From Anaerolineales bacterium (GTDB lineage Bacteria; Chloroflexota; Anaerolineae; 4572-78; NAK82): a stretch of DNA of 6,366 bases. Shown in pieces: positions 1,647 to 6,366 of this stretch. The number at the start of each line of letters is the position of its first letter. Position 1 is the stretch's first letter. The notes under the pieces are model-generated. The model made no database searches. It was given only the letters and a program-made list of their open reading frames with translations, and was not told the DNA's origin. The position numbers and the translations under genes were made by a program. The stretch covers positions 1 through 6,366 of the forward strand of contig JAHELX010000362.1 of NCBI GenBank assembly GCA_024643945.1. Reading direction: 5' to 3'.

Positions 1647-1674
1647 GGGCGACCCTTCCCCGAAGGGGACCTAT
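1642..1674. repeat. Dispersed palindromic element, copy 1, at the end of the beta-gamma gene
   Basis: The stop codon TAG (1644-1646) lies inside TGTAGGGGCG (1642-1651), a 10-mer found again on the minus strand at 5540-5549. It is followed by TTCCCCGAAGGGGACCTAT (1656-1674), shared with three copies at 4315-4433. TCCCC-GAA-GGGGA (1657-1669) can form a short hairpin. On the minus strand it reads CCCCTTCGGGG and could fold with a UUCG loop. It sits between convergent genes and may help end transcription, but no U-run follows on either strand. Confidence 0.7.
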
Positions 1675-1706
1675 TACCAATTTACCAATCTACCAATCTA
1701 CCAACC
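1675..1706. repeat. 8-bp tandem repeat, four units
   Basis: Four adjoining units: TACCAATT, TACCAATC, TACCAATC, TACCAACC. The array starts directly after palindromic element copy 1 and fills most of the gap between the convergent beta-gamma and cyclodeaminase-family genes. No coding potential or promoter is visible here. Confidence 0.85.
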
Positions 1707-1725
1707 CACCATTCTCTAATCCTGA

Positions 1726-2727
1726 TTATTGAACGTCAAATAAGTCTACCACCTGTCCCAATCCTTTTTCCACCGCCTGACGGTAGACAGCAGGTAGAAT
1801 AGCGGCGTATTCGCCCCAGATGCCCAGGGCGATGTAGGTGATGCGCTCCTCGTCACTCTCCCGGCCCGGCTTGCGCCCGGCCACGACGTCGGGCCACTCG
1901 GCGTGAAGCGCATGGCGCGTGAGGCGGCCTTGGGCCTGCAACTGGACCAATTCGGGGTTGCGATGACTGATGTACTCCCACTTATCTACCACCAGCTTGT
2001 CGGATCGAGTTATCACCTCCAATTCCAATTCCTGATACGATCCCATTTTGCACACCAGCACGCCCGGCTTGAGCCAGGCGTGTTTCACCAATTCGCCACT
2101 GCCGGTGGTGACAGTGATAATCACGTCTGACTCGCGGACAGCCACTTCGGGAGAGTCGGCTGCCTCAATGCTGAGTCCCAGGGCCGTACCCATCTCTTGC
2201 GCGATGCGCTCCGCCTTGGCCTGGTCGACGTCGATCAGCCAGACCTGGGCCCAGTCACGGACAACACTCAATGCCTCCAGGTGCATCTGCCCTTGCAGAC
2301 CCGCGCCAAAGAGGGTGAGGGTCCTCGCGTTGGATTGGCACAGGCCCTCGACGGTGAGGGCCGTAGATGCGCCGGTCTTCAAGGCAGTGACCCAACCGGC
2401 TTCCATCAGGCAGACGAGCATGCCCGTCTCAGCCTCAAACAGCAACACCTGCGACGAAGTGACGGGCAGCCCCTGGTTCACGTTGTCGGCGAAGAAGTTG
2501 AAGGTCTTGACGAAGAACAGATCCTCGCCGGCCTTGTATCCCGAAAAGGGCTTGGTGAAATGACCCGGGCGCAGGTCCATATAATACTTGTCGCCCATCA
2601 CCTGGCCGGCGGCATCGGCCTCCAGGCCGGCGCGGGCCAGGTCCACCGCCTGGGCCATGGCCAGCGTCTGACGCACGTCGGCGTCAGTCAGCAGCAGAAT
2701 CTCTCGTCCTGGTTTCGGTTTGGACAT
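1726..2727 (-). CDS. Ornithine cyclodeaminase/mu-crystallin family NAD(P)-dependent enzyme
   Basis: 333 residues, the usual length for the family. The start is ATG 2727, which has AAGGAGG 7 nt upstream; an in-frame GTG at 2748 lies before that site and is not used. Residues 8-115 form the substrate domain, with FFVKTFNFFADN (71-82) holding the family lysine (K74). VTALKTGASTA (113-123) corresponds to the usual A-x-R-T-A/G-A strand, but with Lys117 where most members have Arg. The Rossmann fold follows: TLFGAGLQGQMHLEAL (137-152) is the GxGxxG loop, and LIDVD (164-168) ends the second strand. MGSYQELELEV (228-238) replaces the usual G-x-D-x-P-G-K-x-E-L segment, so the Asp used by true ornithine cyclodeaminase is absent. 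VAGRKPGRESDEERI (282-296) and the C-terminal helix close the protein. Related enzymes act on ornithine, lysine, alanine, ketimines or siderophore precursors, so the substrate here is unknown. It is transcribed alone, convergent to the korB gene. Confidence 0.88.
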   Translation of the reverse strand: MSKPKPGREILLLTDADVRQTLAMAQAVDLARAGLEADAAGQVMGDKYYMDLRPGHFTKPFSGYKAGEDLFFVKTFNFFADNVNQGLPVTSSQVLLFEAETGMLVCLMEAGWVTALKTGASTALTVEGLCQSNARTLTLFGAGLQGQMHLEALSVVRDWAQVWLIDVDQAKAERIAQEMGTALGLSIEAADSPEVAVRESDVIITVTTGSGELVKHAWLKPGVLVCKMGSYQELELEVITRSDKLVVDKWEYISHRNPELVQLQAQGRLTRHALHAEWPDVVAGRKPGRESDEERITYIALGIWGEYAAILPAVYRQAVEKGLGQVVDLFDVQ

Positions 2728-2734
2728 AGTTATC

Positions 2735-2741
2735 CCTCCTT
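2735..2741 (-). promoter_or_regulatory. Strong ribosome binding site of the cyclodeaminase-family gene
   Basis: On the minus strand AAGGAGG stands 7 nt before the ATG at 2727. It is a full Shine-Dalgarno match and excludes the GTG at 2748 as start. It lies 9 bases from the large inverted repeat (2750-2839), so folding of that repeat in the mRNA leader could affect access to it. Confidence 0.85.
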
Positions 2742-2749
2742 GGTCCACT

Positions 2750-3389: not shown

Positions 3390-3407
3390 TTCCCTGGAGA
3401 ATAGATG

Positions 3408-3683
3408 ATGAGTACGTTGACTGTGCAGATCCGGCGTAAGGGGGTCATCACGCTTCCCGTAGAGTTGCGGAACCGGTATGGCCTCGACGAAGGGGATGTG
3501 TTTACACTGGAAGACCTGGGGGATGGCTCCTTCCTGCTGATCCCGCGCGTCTCTCAGGTGGCACACCTGGGAGATCGAGTGGCCGAGCTGATGGAAGAGG
3601 AAGGTGTAAGCCCCGAAGAGGTGCTCAAGGCGCTGGAAGAAGAGCGGGAGACTTACTACCGGGAACACTATGCCGAAACCTGA
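3408..3683 (+). CDS. AbrB/MazE-fold antitoxin (VapB type)
   Basis: 91 residues from the ATG at 3408, which lies 7 nt after GGAGA (3396-3400). The adjacent ATG at 3405 is only 4 nt away and less likely. Residues 1-47 form the swapped-hairpin SpoVT/AbrB DNA-binding domain: TVQIRRKGVITLPVELRNRYGL and, after DEGD, FLLIPR. The highly charged tail (about 53-91, rich in E and R) is probably the flexible part that covers the toxin active site. The gene overlaps the PIN-domain gene by 14 bases, a typical coupled antitoxin-first order. The complex would be expected to bind its own promoter region. The protein should neutralise the downstream nuclease and be degraded faster than it. Family assignment is strong; the specific VapB subfamily is not determined. 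Confidence 0.9.
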   Translation: MSTLTVQIRRKGVITLPVELRNRYGLDEGDVFTLEDLGDGSFLLIPRVSQVAHLGDRVAELMEEEGVSPEEVLKALEEERETYYREHYAET

Positions 3684-4125
3684 CCTCTTCCTGGACAGCA
3701 GCGCCCTCTTCGCCGGAGTCGTCTCAGCCGAGGGAGCATCCCGCGCCTTGCTGCTTCTGGCAGAGGGAGAGCTGATCACCATCACCGTTTCCGAACAGGT
3801 AGTGGCGGAAACGGAGCGGGCGGTGGCCCGCAAGGTTCCAAGGGCACTGCTTACCTACCGGGAGGCCCTGCGCAGCACGGGATTGCGCATCGTGCACGAC
3901 CCATCTCCGCATGAGGTGGAGGCTCACCGGGACATCATCTCCCACCCGCCCGATGTTCCTATCGTCGTGGCGGCTATGCAGGCGGGCGTGGACTACCTGG
4001 TGACCTTGAATCGCCGGCACTTTATGGATGACCCTCATGTGGCAGCTCGTGCAAGACTACGTATTGGCACGCCGGGGGATGCGTTGGCCTGGGTGCGCGG
4101 GCGGCTGGCAGGCGACGAGACGTAG
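3670..4125 (+). CDS. PIN-domain ribonuclease toxin (VapC type)
   Basis: 151 residues, near the usual 130-150 for the family. The PIN fold is shown by its acidic residues in order: D9 in LFLDSSALFAG, E47 in VVAETERAV, D95 in HPPDVPIVVAAMQAG, and D108 in VDYLVTLNRRHF. Together they would hold the Mg ions for RNA cleavage. The segment from D95 through the T-x-N-x-x-H-F motif is typical of the PIN group annotated as putative toxin components. The start ATG lies within the end of the antitoxin gene (14-base overlap), so it depends on antitoxin translation. It has no own promoter or ribosome site of note. Expected role: cleaving tRNA, rRNA or mRNA in the cytoplasm when the antitoxin is lost. The target cannot be inferred. 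All four acidic residues are present, so it looks active. Confidence 0.9.
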   Translation: MPKPDLFLDSSALFAGVVSAEGASRALLLLAEGELITITVSEQVVAETERAVARKVPRALLTYREALRSTGLRIVHDPSPHEVEAHRDIISHPPDVPIVVAAMQAGVDYLVTLNRRHFMDDPHVAARARLRIGTPGDALAWVRGRLAGDET

Positions 4126-4178
4126 TGCTCACCCTGGCCCGATTGCAGTGTTTCAGTGATTCCCAGGCGCTGCCCCCG

Positions 4179-4208
4179 TTGGCCTGTTCGCCCCACCCGT
4201 GCTATACT
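4179..4208 (+). promoter_or_regulatory. Promoter of the substrate-binding lipoprotein gene
   Basis: TTGGCC (4179-4184), an 18-bp spacer and TATACT (4203-4208). It is closely similar to the promoter at 3013-3042. Transcription would start near 4215, so an in-frame GTG at 4199 cannot be the translation start from this promoter. The ATG at 4217 would be almost leaderless. Confidence 0.6.
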
Positions 4209-4242
4209 CAGCGCCCATGAGCGCTAGAAAAACTATAACCTG

Positions 4243-4319
4243 CGTGTCACGCAACACGTACTGCGTACTGCGTACTGCGTATTCCGTATTCCGTATTCCG
4301 TTTTACGCTTTATGTTTTC
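4243..4319 (+). repeat. Heptamer array 1, eleven units
   Basis: Eleven consecutive 7-mers, ten beginning with CG: CGTGTCA, CGCAACA, CGTACTG three times, CGTATTC three times, CGTTTTA, CGCTTTA, TGTTTTC. The array lies just after the promoter and lies in an open frame from ATG 4217. It runs directly into palindromic element copy 2. Confidence 0.9.
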
Positions 4320-4343
4320 CCCGAACGGGACCTATGGGTACGC
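4315..4343 (+). repeat. Dispersed palindromic element, copy 2
   Basis: TTTTCCCCGAACGGGACC followed by TATGGGTACGC. Compared with copy 4, one base of the GGGG arm and one of the ACCTATAGGT palindrome differ. The change that made ATGGG creates the ATG at 4334, the last in-frame start before the lipobox. Confidence 0.8.
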
Positions 4344-6184
4344 TTCCCCCAAAGGGGACCTATAGGTACGCAACACGCAACACGCAACACGCAACACGCT
4401 TTACGTTTTCCCCGAAGGGGACCTATAGGTACGTTTTACGTTTTACGTTTTACGTTTTACTCACCGCCCTCCTCCTCACCGCCTGCAGCCAGACAGCCAA
4501 CCCGGCTCTTCCGCCCACCCAGCCACCGCTGCCCGGCTCGCTGCAGACAGTCGCCATCCCCATCCCCGAAGACCCACCCGGCTTTAACGCCTATCTCAGC
4601 GACACCGGCTACGAGGAACTTCTGGGAGAGCTTATCTACGAAGGCCTGGCCGAGATGGCGCCCGACGGGAGCTTTTATCCCAAGCTGGCCCTGGAATTGC
4701 CTACCCGCGAAAACGGCGGCATCTCACCGGATGGGTTGACCGTCACCTGGAAACTGCGCGATCACATCCTCTGGTCCGACGGCGAGCCCTTCACCAGCGA
4801 CGACGTGCGCTTCACCTGGCAGGCGCTCAGCCACCCCGACAACGGCCTGGCAGGGGCGACCAGCTTCGATTTGATTGACTGGGTGGAGACGCCCGATGAC
4901 TACACTGTCGTCGTGCACTATCGCCAGCCTTACGCCAACATGTTGGGACAGTTTGGTGGGCGGGGATTAGGCATCTTTCCGCGCCACGCCTGCGGCGACC
5001 CAGGTCGCATGGCCTATTGGGCCTGCAACACCCAGCCGGTAGGCACCGGCCCCTTTGTGCTTCAAACGTGGGAGGAAGGCAAGCAACTGGTCTTCGACCG
5101 CAATCCACGCTATTGGCAGACCGAGCGCCCCTTCCTCGACCGCCTGGTCTTCCCCATCGTCCCCCGCGACGCGGTGCGTAGCGATCTGCTGCGAGACGGC
5201 GACGCTCAGGTCAATCTGTGGCTCACGCCGGACCAGATTGAGGAGCTGCAAGACGTGGAAGGGGTACATTTGGTCTCCTTGCCCGGCCGCTGGCTGTTGC
5301 GCCTGGTCTTTAACCTGAGCCAACCGCCGGACGAAGGCGAGACGACCGAGGCCGGGACAAGCTCTTCCGGTCCGCACTTTGCCCTGGCCGATCCCCGCGT
5401 GCGAGAGGCCCTGGATTTGGCGATTGACCGGGGACGTCTTATCGAAGAGGCATTCGACGGGCAGGGGAACGTTGCCTTTGGCGAGTCTTATCGCGGCTGG
5501 GCAGTGTGTCCTGCCGCCGACGCAGGGGCGGGGTCACCCCGCCCCTACAACCCCGACGCCGCCCGCGCCCTGCTGGCCCAGGCGGGCTGGCTGGACTTGA
5601 ACGGCGACGGCGTGCTGGAAGCGCACGGCACGCCCTATGCCCCGGATGGGACCAAGCTCCAGTTAACCCTCCTTACCTACGACGGTTGGGATGCACTGAC
5701 CGATGCTCAGAATCTCATCGCCCAGATGCTGCGGGAGCTCGGCATCCGGGTCTTGACTGACTTGGCCGGGCCGGAGGATTTGTGGGGCAACTGGGAAGAA
5801 GGAGGGCTGGAAGCTCACGGCCAGTTTGACCTGGACCTGTGGGACGAAGGCTATCCCGGCATTGATCCCACCGACTACCTAATCTGGCGCTACGCTTCGT
5901 GGTCCATCCCCAGTATAGCAGATGGCGGGGCAGGGGGTAACGTGATGCGCTTCACCAACCCCGAAGTGGACCGCCTTTTGCAGCAGGCGCAGGCCCAGCC
6001 CGACCCGATGGCGCGCCGCCAGACCCTCTGCCAGATTCAGCGCATCCTGGCCGACGAACGCCCCATGCTGTACCTGGTCTACTTCTCCGATACTCACGCC
6101 TTTTCCTCCCAATTGCAGGGACTGGTCATCAACCCTAACGATGCCCTGACATGGGATGTGATCAACTGGCAGGTGGCGCGGTAA
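4334..6184 (+). CDS. ABC transporter family 5 substrate-binding lipoprotein (peptide/nickel/oligosaccharide type)
   Basis: 616 residues from ATG 4334. The frame is also open to ATG 4217 and GTG 4199; 4334 is preferred as the nearest start to the lipobox, but no good ribosome site precedes any of them. YVLLTALLLTAC ends in a type II signal lipobox (L-T-A-C), so Cys51 would be lipidated and the mature 566-residue protein anchored outside the membrane. The family 5 signature lies at about 132-165 (PDGLTVTWKLRDHILWSDG, then EPFTSDDVRFTW). GTGPF at 237-241 is followed by LVFDRNPRYW, then ADPRVREALDLAIDR and YNPDAARALLAQAGW. DLNGDGVLE (421-429) is a loop common in this family. Expected role: binding a peptide-like or other solute for an ABC importer. 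No permease or ATPase gene follows; a perfect inverted repeat overlaps the stop. Odd points are the repeat-built signal region and a GC-rich inverted repeat inside the gene. The ligand cannot be inferred. Confidence 0.9.
   Translation: MGTLPPKGTYRYATRNTQHATRFTFSPKGTYRYVLRFTFYVLLTALLLTACSQTANPALPPTQPPLPGSLQTVAIPIPEDPPGFNAYLSDTGYEELLGELIYEGLAEMAPDGSFYPKLALELPTRENGGISPDGLTVTWKLRDHILWSDGEPFTSDDVRFTWQALSHPDNGLAGATSFDLIDWVETPDDYTVVVHYRQPYANMLGQFGGRGLGIFPRHACGDPGRMAYWACNTQPVGTGPFVLQTWEEGKQLVFDRNPRYWQTERPFLDRLVFPIVPRDAVRSDLLRDGDAQVNLWLTPDQIEELQDVEGVHLVSLPGRWLLRLVFNLSQPPDEGETTEAGTSSSGPHFALADPRVREALDLAIDRGRLIEEAFDGQGNVAFGESYRGWAVCPAADAGAGSPRPYNPDAARALLAQAGWLDLNGDGVLEAHGTPYAPDGTKLQLTLLTYDGWDALTDAQNLIAQMLRELGIRVLTDLAGPEDLWGNWEEGGLEAHGQFDLDLWDEGYPGIDPTDYLIWRYASWSIPSIADGGAGGNVMRFTNPEVDRLLQQAQAQPDPMARRQTLCQIQRILADERPMLYLVYFSDTHAFSSQLQGLVINPNDALTWDVINWQVAR
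4344..4371 (+). repeat. Dispersed palindromic element, copy 3
   Basis: TTCCCCCAAAGGGGACC followed by TATAGGTACGC. It stands head to tail with copy 2 and leads straight into heptamer array 2. ACCTATAGGT is a perfect 10-bp palindrome here. Confidence 0.8.
4369..4410 (+). repeat. Heptamer array 2, six units
   Basis: CGCAACA four times in perfect tandem (4369-4396), then CGCTTTA and CGTTTTC. It lies inside the predicted coding region between ATG 4334 and the lipobox, and ends in palindromic element copy 4. A single CGCAACA unit also occurs in array 1. Confidence 0.9.
4406..4433 (+). repeat. Dispersed palindromic element, copy 4
   Basis: The most complete copy: TTTTCCCCGAAGGGG followed by ACCTATAGGTACG. 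It holds a CCCC-GAA-GGGG hairpin (4410-4420) directly joined to the perfect palindrome ACCTATAGGT (4421-4430). It separates heptamer arrays 2 and 3. Confidence 0.85.
4432..4459 (+). repeat. Heptamer array 3, four units, coding for the signal peptide
   Basis: CGTTTTA four times in perfect tandem. Read in the lipoprotein frame it gives a seven-residue cycle (Y-V-L-R-F-T-F, then Y-V-L) that forms the front of the hydrophobic signal segment. All three forward frames give the same cycle and contain no stop. Confidence 0.9.
5524..5546. repeat. Perfect GC-rich inverted repeat inside the lipoprotein gene
   Basis: AGGGGCGGGG, a 3-base TCA centre, then CCCCGCCCCT. The minus strand around it carries TGTAGGGGCG (5540-5549), identical to 1642-1651 at the korB stop. 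In frame it encodes part of DAGAGSPRPYNP, just ahead of the conserved YNPDAARALL segment, so it looks like a small repeat-derived in-frame insertion. Chance in GC-rich coding DNA is the alternative. Confidence 0.65.
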
Positions 6185-6240
6185 AACGTAAAGACGTAAA
6201 ACGTGACAAGCCCCTTACGTTTTACGTCTTTACGTTTTAC
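6181..6240. terminator. Perfect 24-bp inverted repeat overlapping the lipoprotein stop codon
   Basis: Arms 6181-6204 and 6217-6240 are exact reverse complements around a 12-nt loop. The TAA stop (6182-6184) lies in the left arm. The arms are built of the CGTTTTA heptamer and an 8-mer CGTCTTTA, the same unit as in array 3 of this gene; two more units (CGCTTCA, CGTTTTA) follow to 6253. Position and stem strength suggest it ends transcription or protects the mRNA end. The stem is AT-rich, so a classical GC-stem intrinsic terminator is not shown. Confidence 0.6.
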
Positions 6241-6250
6241 GCTTCACGTT

Positions 6251-6366
6251 TTACTGGACTACCGGCTCGGAGAATCTAACCGACGCGCCCAACCTGCCGA
6301 CGCCCCAGCGACCGCTTTCGTCTCCAAGCTGGCGGGTACCGTGTCCCCACAGGAAAGCCCTGCCGC
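6251..6366 (-). CDS. Possible C-terminal end of a convergent gene, cut by window edge
   Basis: On the minus strand a frame is open from the window edge to TAA at 6251-6253, giving 37 residues that end RLGASVRFSEPVVQ. About three quarters of its codons end in G or C, as in the real genes here. Its stop lies in a heptamer unit, as the stop of the lipoprotein gene does. I recognise no domain, and a frame this short could be open by chance. If real, the inverted repeat 6181-6240 would separate two convergent genes. Confidence 0.2.
   Translation of the reverse strand, partial: GRAFLWGHGTRQLGDESGRWGVGRLGASVRFSEPVVQ

Follow-up and report, generated by a model that had tools for sequence, protein, structure and literature searches.

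We analysed a 6,366-nucleotide stretch of DNA from an Anaerolineales bacterium (GenBank assembly GCA_024643945.1, contig JAHELX010000362.1), referred to here as the window, and focused on a locus of tandem seven-base repeats (heptamers) at positions 4243-4459. The locus sits within an open frame (4199-6184), in the signal-peptide region of a gene for a peptide/nickel-type ATP-binding cassette (ABC) transporter substrate-binding lipoprotein of the SBP_bac_5 family (4217-6184, + strand; PF00496, E = 8.5e-69; start MSAR), hereafter the SBP gene. It is flanked upstream by a conserved promoter and start (ATG at 4217) and downstream by the lipobox Cys codon (4484). An earlier description of the same DNA (the original prediction) gave the sequence and coordinates of the locus correctly and overlooked this gene context; since the locus lies inside the SBP_bac_5 open frame, it is not intergenic.

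Three heptamer arrays on the + strand make up the locus. The first (4243-4318) reads CGTGTCA, CGCAACA, CGTACTG three times, CGTATTC three times, CGTTTTA and CGCTTTA, then TGTTTT. The second (4369-4409) consists of CGCAACA four times, CGCTTTA and CGTTTT. The third (4432-4459) has four CGTTTTA units and leads on into the signal peptide's hydrophobic core (VLRFTFYVLLTALLLTAC). The unbroken runs of CG-started units number 10 from 4243, 6 from 4369 and 4 from 4432; of the 11, 6 and 4 units originally counted, the last two figures stand, but the first is reached only if a CG-less unit is included. All three arrays share a common register (4369-4243 = 18x7 and 4432-4243 = 27x7), and a single 7-bp register from 4243 to 4453 spans the arrays together with three palindromic elements that have 21-bp cores. 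One phase is shared by 21 of the 25 CG dinucleotides in 4230-4466, while the maximum was 12 among 10,000 first-order Markov sequences modelled on the stretch (0/10,000 reach 21). The constant register claimed for the arrays was thus borne out, as was the switch from CGTACTG x3 to CGTATTC x3 inside one array with its phase kept.

The palindromic elements, all on the + strand, have their cores at 4319-4339 (copy 1, CCCCGAACGGGACCTATGGGT, diverged), 4347-4367 (copy 2, CCCCAAAGGGGACCTATAGGT, with one extra C before it) and 4410-4430 (copy 3, CCCCGAAGGGGACCTATAGGT). Three elements are therefore present as described, but they are not identical copies; CCCCGAAGGGG occurs exactly in one of them and ACCTATAGGT in two. 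Each copy has a heptamer remnant on its left (TTTT in two, CTTC in one) and ACG on its right, and the register is kept in all three. For a survey of relatives, we used 199 genomes of the class to which G001 (JAJRXB010000006.1, 'Chloroflexi bacterium') belongs. An ortholog is present in G001, and records L002-L005 of its family carry the titles Anaerolineales, Anaerolineae and Ardenticatenia. When up to 3 mismatches were allowed, CCCCGAAGGGGACCTATAGGT was found at 14 places in G001 and its reversed control at 0; in the 198 other genomes searched it occurred once in each of four, no more than the reversed control. The element therefore behaves in G001 as a dispersed palindrome resembling repetitive extragenic palindromes (REP) or miniature inverted-repeat transposable elements (MITE). 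Six of the 14 G001 matches were read with their flanks. Five of these six are preceded by two or more T, and no heptamer array lies within 60-69 bases of any of them; in one (L093) an array lies about 1.1 kb from the element, and another record (L094) carries two copies of the element, arranged in inverted order. A single Y1_Tnp match is present in G001. The array and the element as a single unit were accordingly rejected for G001, and the composite array-element system first proposed does not hold, the element being found in 5 of the 199 genomes. From the flank-read G001 copies without arrays and the near-absence of the element outside G001, we conclude that the element is a separate lineage-level family that entered the array. 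Such an entry of a dispersed 21-bp-core element would have left both frame and register intact.

A promoter-like sequence, TTGGCC-18-TATACT (4179-4208, + strand), is the sole promoter-like match in 4100-6366 (mean in shuffles 0.4). The ortholog L002 (CP070811.1) preserves both hexamers and ATGAGCGC, and three CG at 7-bp spacing lie between its start and lipobox. Because ATG 4217 is placed only 8 nt after the -10 hexamer, the mRNA is probably leaderless. The frame is open from this start to the Cys codon at 4484-4486 (+ strand) of LTAC, which we take to be the lipobox from its motif; the signal peptide is a predicted one. Judged from the sequence, translation probably begins upstream of the array, and the array is probably translated in the cell. 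None of the five main units has a stop on the + strand, which is not a rare property, since 69% of all heptamers are stop-free on one strand. Since 7 shares no factor with 3, a unit is read as a single cyclic heptapeptide whichever of the three + frames is used (RFTFYVL, RFTLYAL, RNTQHAT, RIPYSVF and RTAYCVL). These heptapeptides would form an Arg-rich n-region leading into the hydrophobic core. We infer that the array is tolerated by, rather than beneficial to, the SBP gene. Searching 700 array-strand items for CG-heptamer arrays with a lipobox downstream produced 14 raw matches, of which only the SBP gene and the L002 ortholog were convincing; we do not claim heptamer signal peptides as a general phenomenon.

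Homologous proteins indicate how this N-terminus changes. Of 7,997 candidates scored in the protein search, 823 were retained; the statements on homologs cover the best 120 of these, and the start and phase tests the 45 best proteins, query included. P0002, the closest among the matches listed (96% identical; 19 member sequences, one listed contig), has a similar start, with element-derived peptides elsewhere and in a different order, and its distance from start to Cys is 14 residues shorter (42 bp, six units). Such differences in length and in element-peptide placement at 96% identity indicate that the locus turns over fast. Among the matches listed, many homologs of 77-84% identity bear other heptapeptide-like N-termini, such as the SRLTPHA repeats of P0010, and in those of 64-73% identity whose sequence extends to the lipobox, the signal peptide is shorter and has no such repeats. 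An MSAR-like start was present in 18 of the 45 proteins (MSA in 14; also MSGW, MSDQ, MRAK and LSTT). Counted from the start in residues modulo 7, the last Arg motif of these 18 (His in P0021) is in phase 4 in 11 proteins, phase 1 in 6 and phase 3 in 1, and the Arg-Arg distances cluster at 7, 14, 21, 28, 35 and 42. The start-to-Cys distance ranges from 26 to 89 residues. Taken modulo 7 it is mainly 6 (6 proteins), 5 (5 proteins) or 1 (5 proteins); more than one class arises because the hydrophobic cores vary in length. The turnover of the array in the SBP gene can be traced across homologs in 21-bp steps.

It is also possible, though improbable in our judgement, that the locus is a phase-variable contingency locus, in which the frame downstream of ATG 4217 would shift whenever a heptamer is gained or lost, toggling the transporter lipoprotein off and on. 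The array does lie in the coding region right after the start, and its unit is not a multiple of 3. Phase-variable genes with heptanucleotide tracts are known in other organisms. The homologs that start near the lipobox could be off forms, as well as miscalled starts or array-less genes. An enrichment of simple sequence repeats (SSRs) at N-termini also fits such a locus; PMC4692102 cites Lin and Kussell for it. However, the units are degenerate, with identical runs of at most 4 units, and all 18 homologs with an MSAR-like start are in frame, although the sample is biased that way.

The distribution of the arrays among relatives bears on the same question. The search of relatives for 7-bp-period loci that had been suggested found many: three CGCAACA units plus CG, with up to 3 mismatches, matched in 88 of the 199 genomes. 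In G196 this pattern reached 807+760 places compared with 54+113 for its reversed control, overlapping places in one array being scored separately. A scan for self-match at lags 4-15 showed an excess at lags 7 and 8. There were 46 and 5 such arrays in 200 kb of G106 (lags 14 and 12 gave a further 16 and 6), 26 and 11 in 159 kb of G196, and 7 and 4 in 146 kb from 20 G001 contigs. The 43 kb scanned from G004/G005 held none at these two lags, and neither did the 52 kb from G002, where two of the three scanned stretches had been chosen for a repeat-pattern match; the Markov control at lag 7 gave 0 in three repeats each. Single contigs held 11 lag-7 arrays in 109 kb from ten further pattern-rich genomes versus 4 in 160 kb from ten pattern-free ones. 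In 600 kb of G106, 150 period-7 and 15 period-8 arrays were counted, and 8-mer arrays occur alongside 7-mer arrays in G001, G106 and G196. Between 47 and 63% of array bases lie within the longest open reading frames (ORFs), which cover 83-90% of the sequence in the four samples, and the remaining 37-53% lie outside them. The arrays are thus not confined to genes, which also speaks against phase variation, but a mostly non-coding placement, a stronger argument against it, was not borne out by these shares. Coding-called arrays lay within 200 bp of the longest-ORF start in 16/24 cases in G106, 5/21 in G196 and 2/8 in G001; the true starts therefore matter for the coding share.

The unit sequences are numerous and switch in phase. 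The commonest CG units were CGCAACA, CGTGTTG, CGTGAAA and CGTTTCA. CG anchoring had been put forward as the defining rule of the arrays, but CG is present in at least 75% of units in only 42 of 94 period-7 arrays, and other unit classes (ACTGATT, TCCAATC, CCTGCCA and CAACAGT) keep the period without it. CG is therefore ruled out as a universal anchor. Two candidate causes of array abundance were also rejected, since neither showed an association in 30 of the 199 genomes, selected by counts of one unit pattern: Y1_Tnp was found in 12/15 array-rich and 13/15 array-poor genomes, and MutS_V in 14/15 and 15/15, arguing against a Y1 transposase or MutS loss.

An assembly artefact of the repeat region in a metagenome contig is a very remote prospect. 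A metagenome source is likely, but the frame is open throughout the locus, the separate record P0002 holds similar parts in another order, similar arrays exist in many genomes, and G001 has copies of the element.

These results make it likely that the locus is a member of a dispersed family of degenerate heptamers common in the class, grown in a lipoprotein N-terminal coding region through whole-period duplication and point mutation. Adjacent units are identical at 0.739 of the five free positions compared with 0.640 after shuffling (0/500 shuffles reach this value), in runs picked by CG spacing alone, whose 78 rows represent both strands and thus about half as many arrays, pattern-selected loci included. 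In the set of 94 arrays, the decay of identity with distance is partly forced by the detection rule, and the CG-spacing set is cleaner. New units would come from duplication of whole periods, by slipped-strand synthesis or unequal recombination, and point mutation would let the unit sequence drift while the 7-bp register is inherited. Selection on the downstream frame would restrict length changes to multiples of three units (one step being 21 bp or 7 residues). We infer that either slippage or recombination is the duplicating step. The original prediction had taken the in-phase switching to exclude slippage; this does not follow, since slippage and unequal crossing-over shift whole periods, and neighbouring units do resemble each other. 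Because duplication with point mutation predicts this similarity, a special register-keeping process is unneeded. In the SBP gene, the heptamer array is probably now part of the translated signal peptide.

Several points weigh against the duplication and drift of a dispersed heptamer family as a full account. The longest run of identical units at the locus is 4 units. The close ortholog L001 (G001) has a different sequence ahead of the lipobox, in which the MSAR start was not seen, and several homologs of 77-84% identity among the matches listed (records starting near the lipobox include P0007, P0009, P0012 and P0022) begin near the lipobox without an array. The Arg-phase test ignores kinship and was devised after the start-to-Cys test had given three classes. 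Because protein databases show frames accepted by gene callers, in-frame lengths are over-represented. The reversed control of the CGCAACA pattern matches about 32 of the 199 genomes and exceeds the forward pattern in seven (for example G051, G187 and G193). Finally, slippage alone leaves unexplained both the preference for 7 and 8 over 5, 6 and 9 and the fixed polarity of hairpin arms.

The hairpins are most evident at two further heptamer loci in the window, listed without a strand. A CGTCCTT/CGAAGGA locus (2750-2839) has 37-nt inverted arms that are 86% complementary (z scores of -8.1 and -9.7) and adjoins the 5' end of an ornithine-cyclodeaminase-like gene on the - strand. A CGTAAAA/CGTTTTA locus (6181-6240) has perfect 24-nt inverted arms (z -8.3 and -5.6) that overlap the SBP gene stop codon. 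An irregular 8-bp unit is common to both arms of the latter (CGTAAAGA / TCTTTACG), a pattern that copying of one arm from the other would give. In the main locus, pairing of the left with the middle array gives a weaker fold (z -3.1 and -3.8; 1 and 0 of 200 shuffles as good), and an ungapped search of it found no inverted arms, or weak ones no better than in a random window. At 1658-1715 (+ strand), an 8-mer array (TACCAATC) comes directly after a partial palindromic element, as read from the window sequence and the element match.

We classed CG units as F, with A before the next CG, or as R, the complement, starting with CGT. Transitions from R to F outnumbered those from F to R by 21 to 6 in a first sample (66 clusters, with pattern-selected loci and the window included) and by 13 to 3 in held-out sequence (754,944 bp, 51 clusters, 16 with both classes). 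Because the order R-F is strand-symmetric, this polarity, a G/T-rich 5' arm and an A/C-rich 3' arm, is real. In line with it, the 5' arm was G-rich in 19 of 21 held-out array hairpins (tie 1, C-rich 1), compared with 44 of 84 other held-out hairpins (tie 11, C-rich 29; Fisher p = 0.0026). Long arrays with 19 and 22 CG starts and several in-phase unit switches were seen in L061 (4843-4968) and L077 (13165-13311), and in L061 the change of strand class occurs at a unit that fits both classes. An inverted partner scoring at least 16 was found for 17 of 77 clusters, compared with 5 in the mirror control and 4 in random windows. Since most clusters are without a strong inverted partner, hairpins are not the whole story.

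The orientation of the arrays relative to genes was counted with longest-ORF genes, arrays being dropped if the G-C difference was below 3, if they lay inside ORFs, or if the neighbour was more than 600 bp away. Of 29 convergent cases, 24 had the G-rich strand in the sense direction of the nearer gene; of 30 tandem cases near starts, 23 had it antisense. It was sense in 11 and antisense in 13 tandem pairs near stops, and sense in 4 and antisense in 9 divergent pairs. In a cruder count, the sense and antisense numbers were 35 and 77 after stops, 12 and 1 for convergent pairs, 7 and 32 at the 5' ends of ORFs, and 28 and 41 within ORFs.

These findings could also be read as a hairpin-driven element, in which register-locked hairpins are kept or written for a role at the RNA level (termination, stability) or in replication, the copy in the SBP gene being ectopic. 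The two strong hairpins of the window and the folding of the main locus are in its favour, as are the arm polarity, the R-to-F order and the strand counts at convergent pairs (24 to 5) and near tandem starts (23 to 7). However, just 17 of 77 clusters reach the inverted-partner score of 16, the strand rule is mixed (sense to antisense, 11 to 13 at tandem stops; 28 to 41 in ORFs and 35 to 77 after stops in the cruder count), and the main locus has no clean ungapped inverted arms. We therefore consider this explanation unlikely. A more general idea, which we put forward tentatively and still regard as doubtful, is that the conserved property is the 7/8-nt period together with strand polarity rather than the sequence of the repeats, pointing to a sequence-independent ruler such as the footprint of a polymerase or other protein that would move in 7-8 nt steps and duplicate or write DNA at hairpins. 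The array-dense genomes with many unit sequences indicate that sequence is separable from period and polarity. If a ruler does operate, similar elements would be expected in Chloroflexota, cyanobacteria and Xanthomonas, and would sometimes become new coding sequence such as signal peptides.

Other features of the window are as follows. By Pfam and reading frame, 306-1646 is part of a 2-oxoacid:ferredoxin oxidoreductase with TPP_enzyme_C and POR domains, and 1726-2748 (- strand) is the ornithine cyclodeaminase/mu-crystallin-like gene (OCD_Mu_crystall). MazE-like and PIN-domain genes with a 14-bp overlap (3405-4125) are likely a toxin-antitoxin pair. No Rfam family matched in the window, and no plasmid relatives of 4190-4480 were found at blastn distance. 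A palindrome, GGGGCGGGGTCACCCCGCCCC, lies at 5525-5545 within the SBP coding region, at an indel site among homologs. With up to 2 mismatches, it was found at 17+24 places in G106, 14+16 in G196 and 5+5 in G140, most places being counted on both strands because the sequence is near-palindromic, and was absent from G001-G005.

We regard the arrays as a heptameric dispersed repeat family of a Chloroflexota class, of which the closest known kind is the heptameric repeats of cyanobacteria, termed short tandemly repeated repetitive sequences (STRRs), and of Xanthomonas/Nostoc. Among the papers listed for Chloroflexi, Chloroflexota or Anaerolineae together with repeats, we found no description of this family. 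The published systems are compared here from portions of the papers cited. Repeats with units of 4-11 bp are stated to be generally normal or weakly over-represented (PMC4060949), and the excess of heptamers in bacterial simple repeats, known from a 2007 report, had seen little follow-up by 2015 (PMC4692102). The nearest report concerns the (GATAGRA)n satellites of Chloroflexus aurantiacus (PMC6749651), which are likewise heptamers scattered in a Chloroflexota genome; as far as that portion goes, they have one unit in one species, whereas here units are many and 88/199 genomes match one pattern. The TAACTGA repeats of Beggiatoaceae (PMC4679880) are also dispersed heptamers, but they are presented as one exact unit, mostly just upstream of starts, with related heptamers rarely repeated. 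The P6b stems of the Nostoc trnL intron (Class I TDNGATT, Class II NNTGAGT; PMC4476775) resemble our loci in a hairpin stem of 7-nt motifs that changes length by units. They are described for one group I intron, in contrast to the dispersed Chloroflexota arrays and the probably translated copy in the SBP gene.

The comparison with heptanucleotide STRRs made in the original prediction was a fair one, since both 7-bp tandem units and many loci are present here, with three loci in the 6.4-kb window and many in relatives, as in heptameric SSRs and STRRs. The cyanobacterial STRRs (Calothrix, Nostoc and Microcystis) are 7-bp tandem repeats with several units per genome; three heptanucleotides are given for Calothrix in the portion of PMC4692102 drawn on, and a range of repeating heptamers, often mixed, for Microcystis in that of PMC4679880. 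They differ in belonging to another phylum, and the Chloroflexota copy lies inside a signal-peptide coding region; this comparison is by description only. The GGGNATC / GGGGA(T/C)T heptamers of Xanthomonas/Nostoc (Rehm et al. 2015, PMC4692102) share the period of 7 and the dispersal. Unlike them, judging from the text available, the window units are without quadruplex G-tracts, the repertoire is wider, and no strand preference is seen near tandem stops. The discussion of that paper cites the hypothesis that the period equals the DNA segment held by a polymerase. According to the same paper, the G-rich strand of the Xanthomonas/Nostoc heptamers is for the most part the non-coding one immediately before ORFs and the coding one immediately past stop codons, and the Chloroflexota counts for convergent pairs and near starts resemble this rule.

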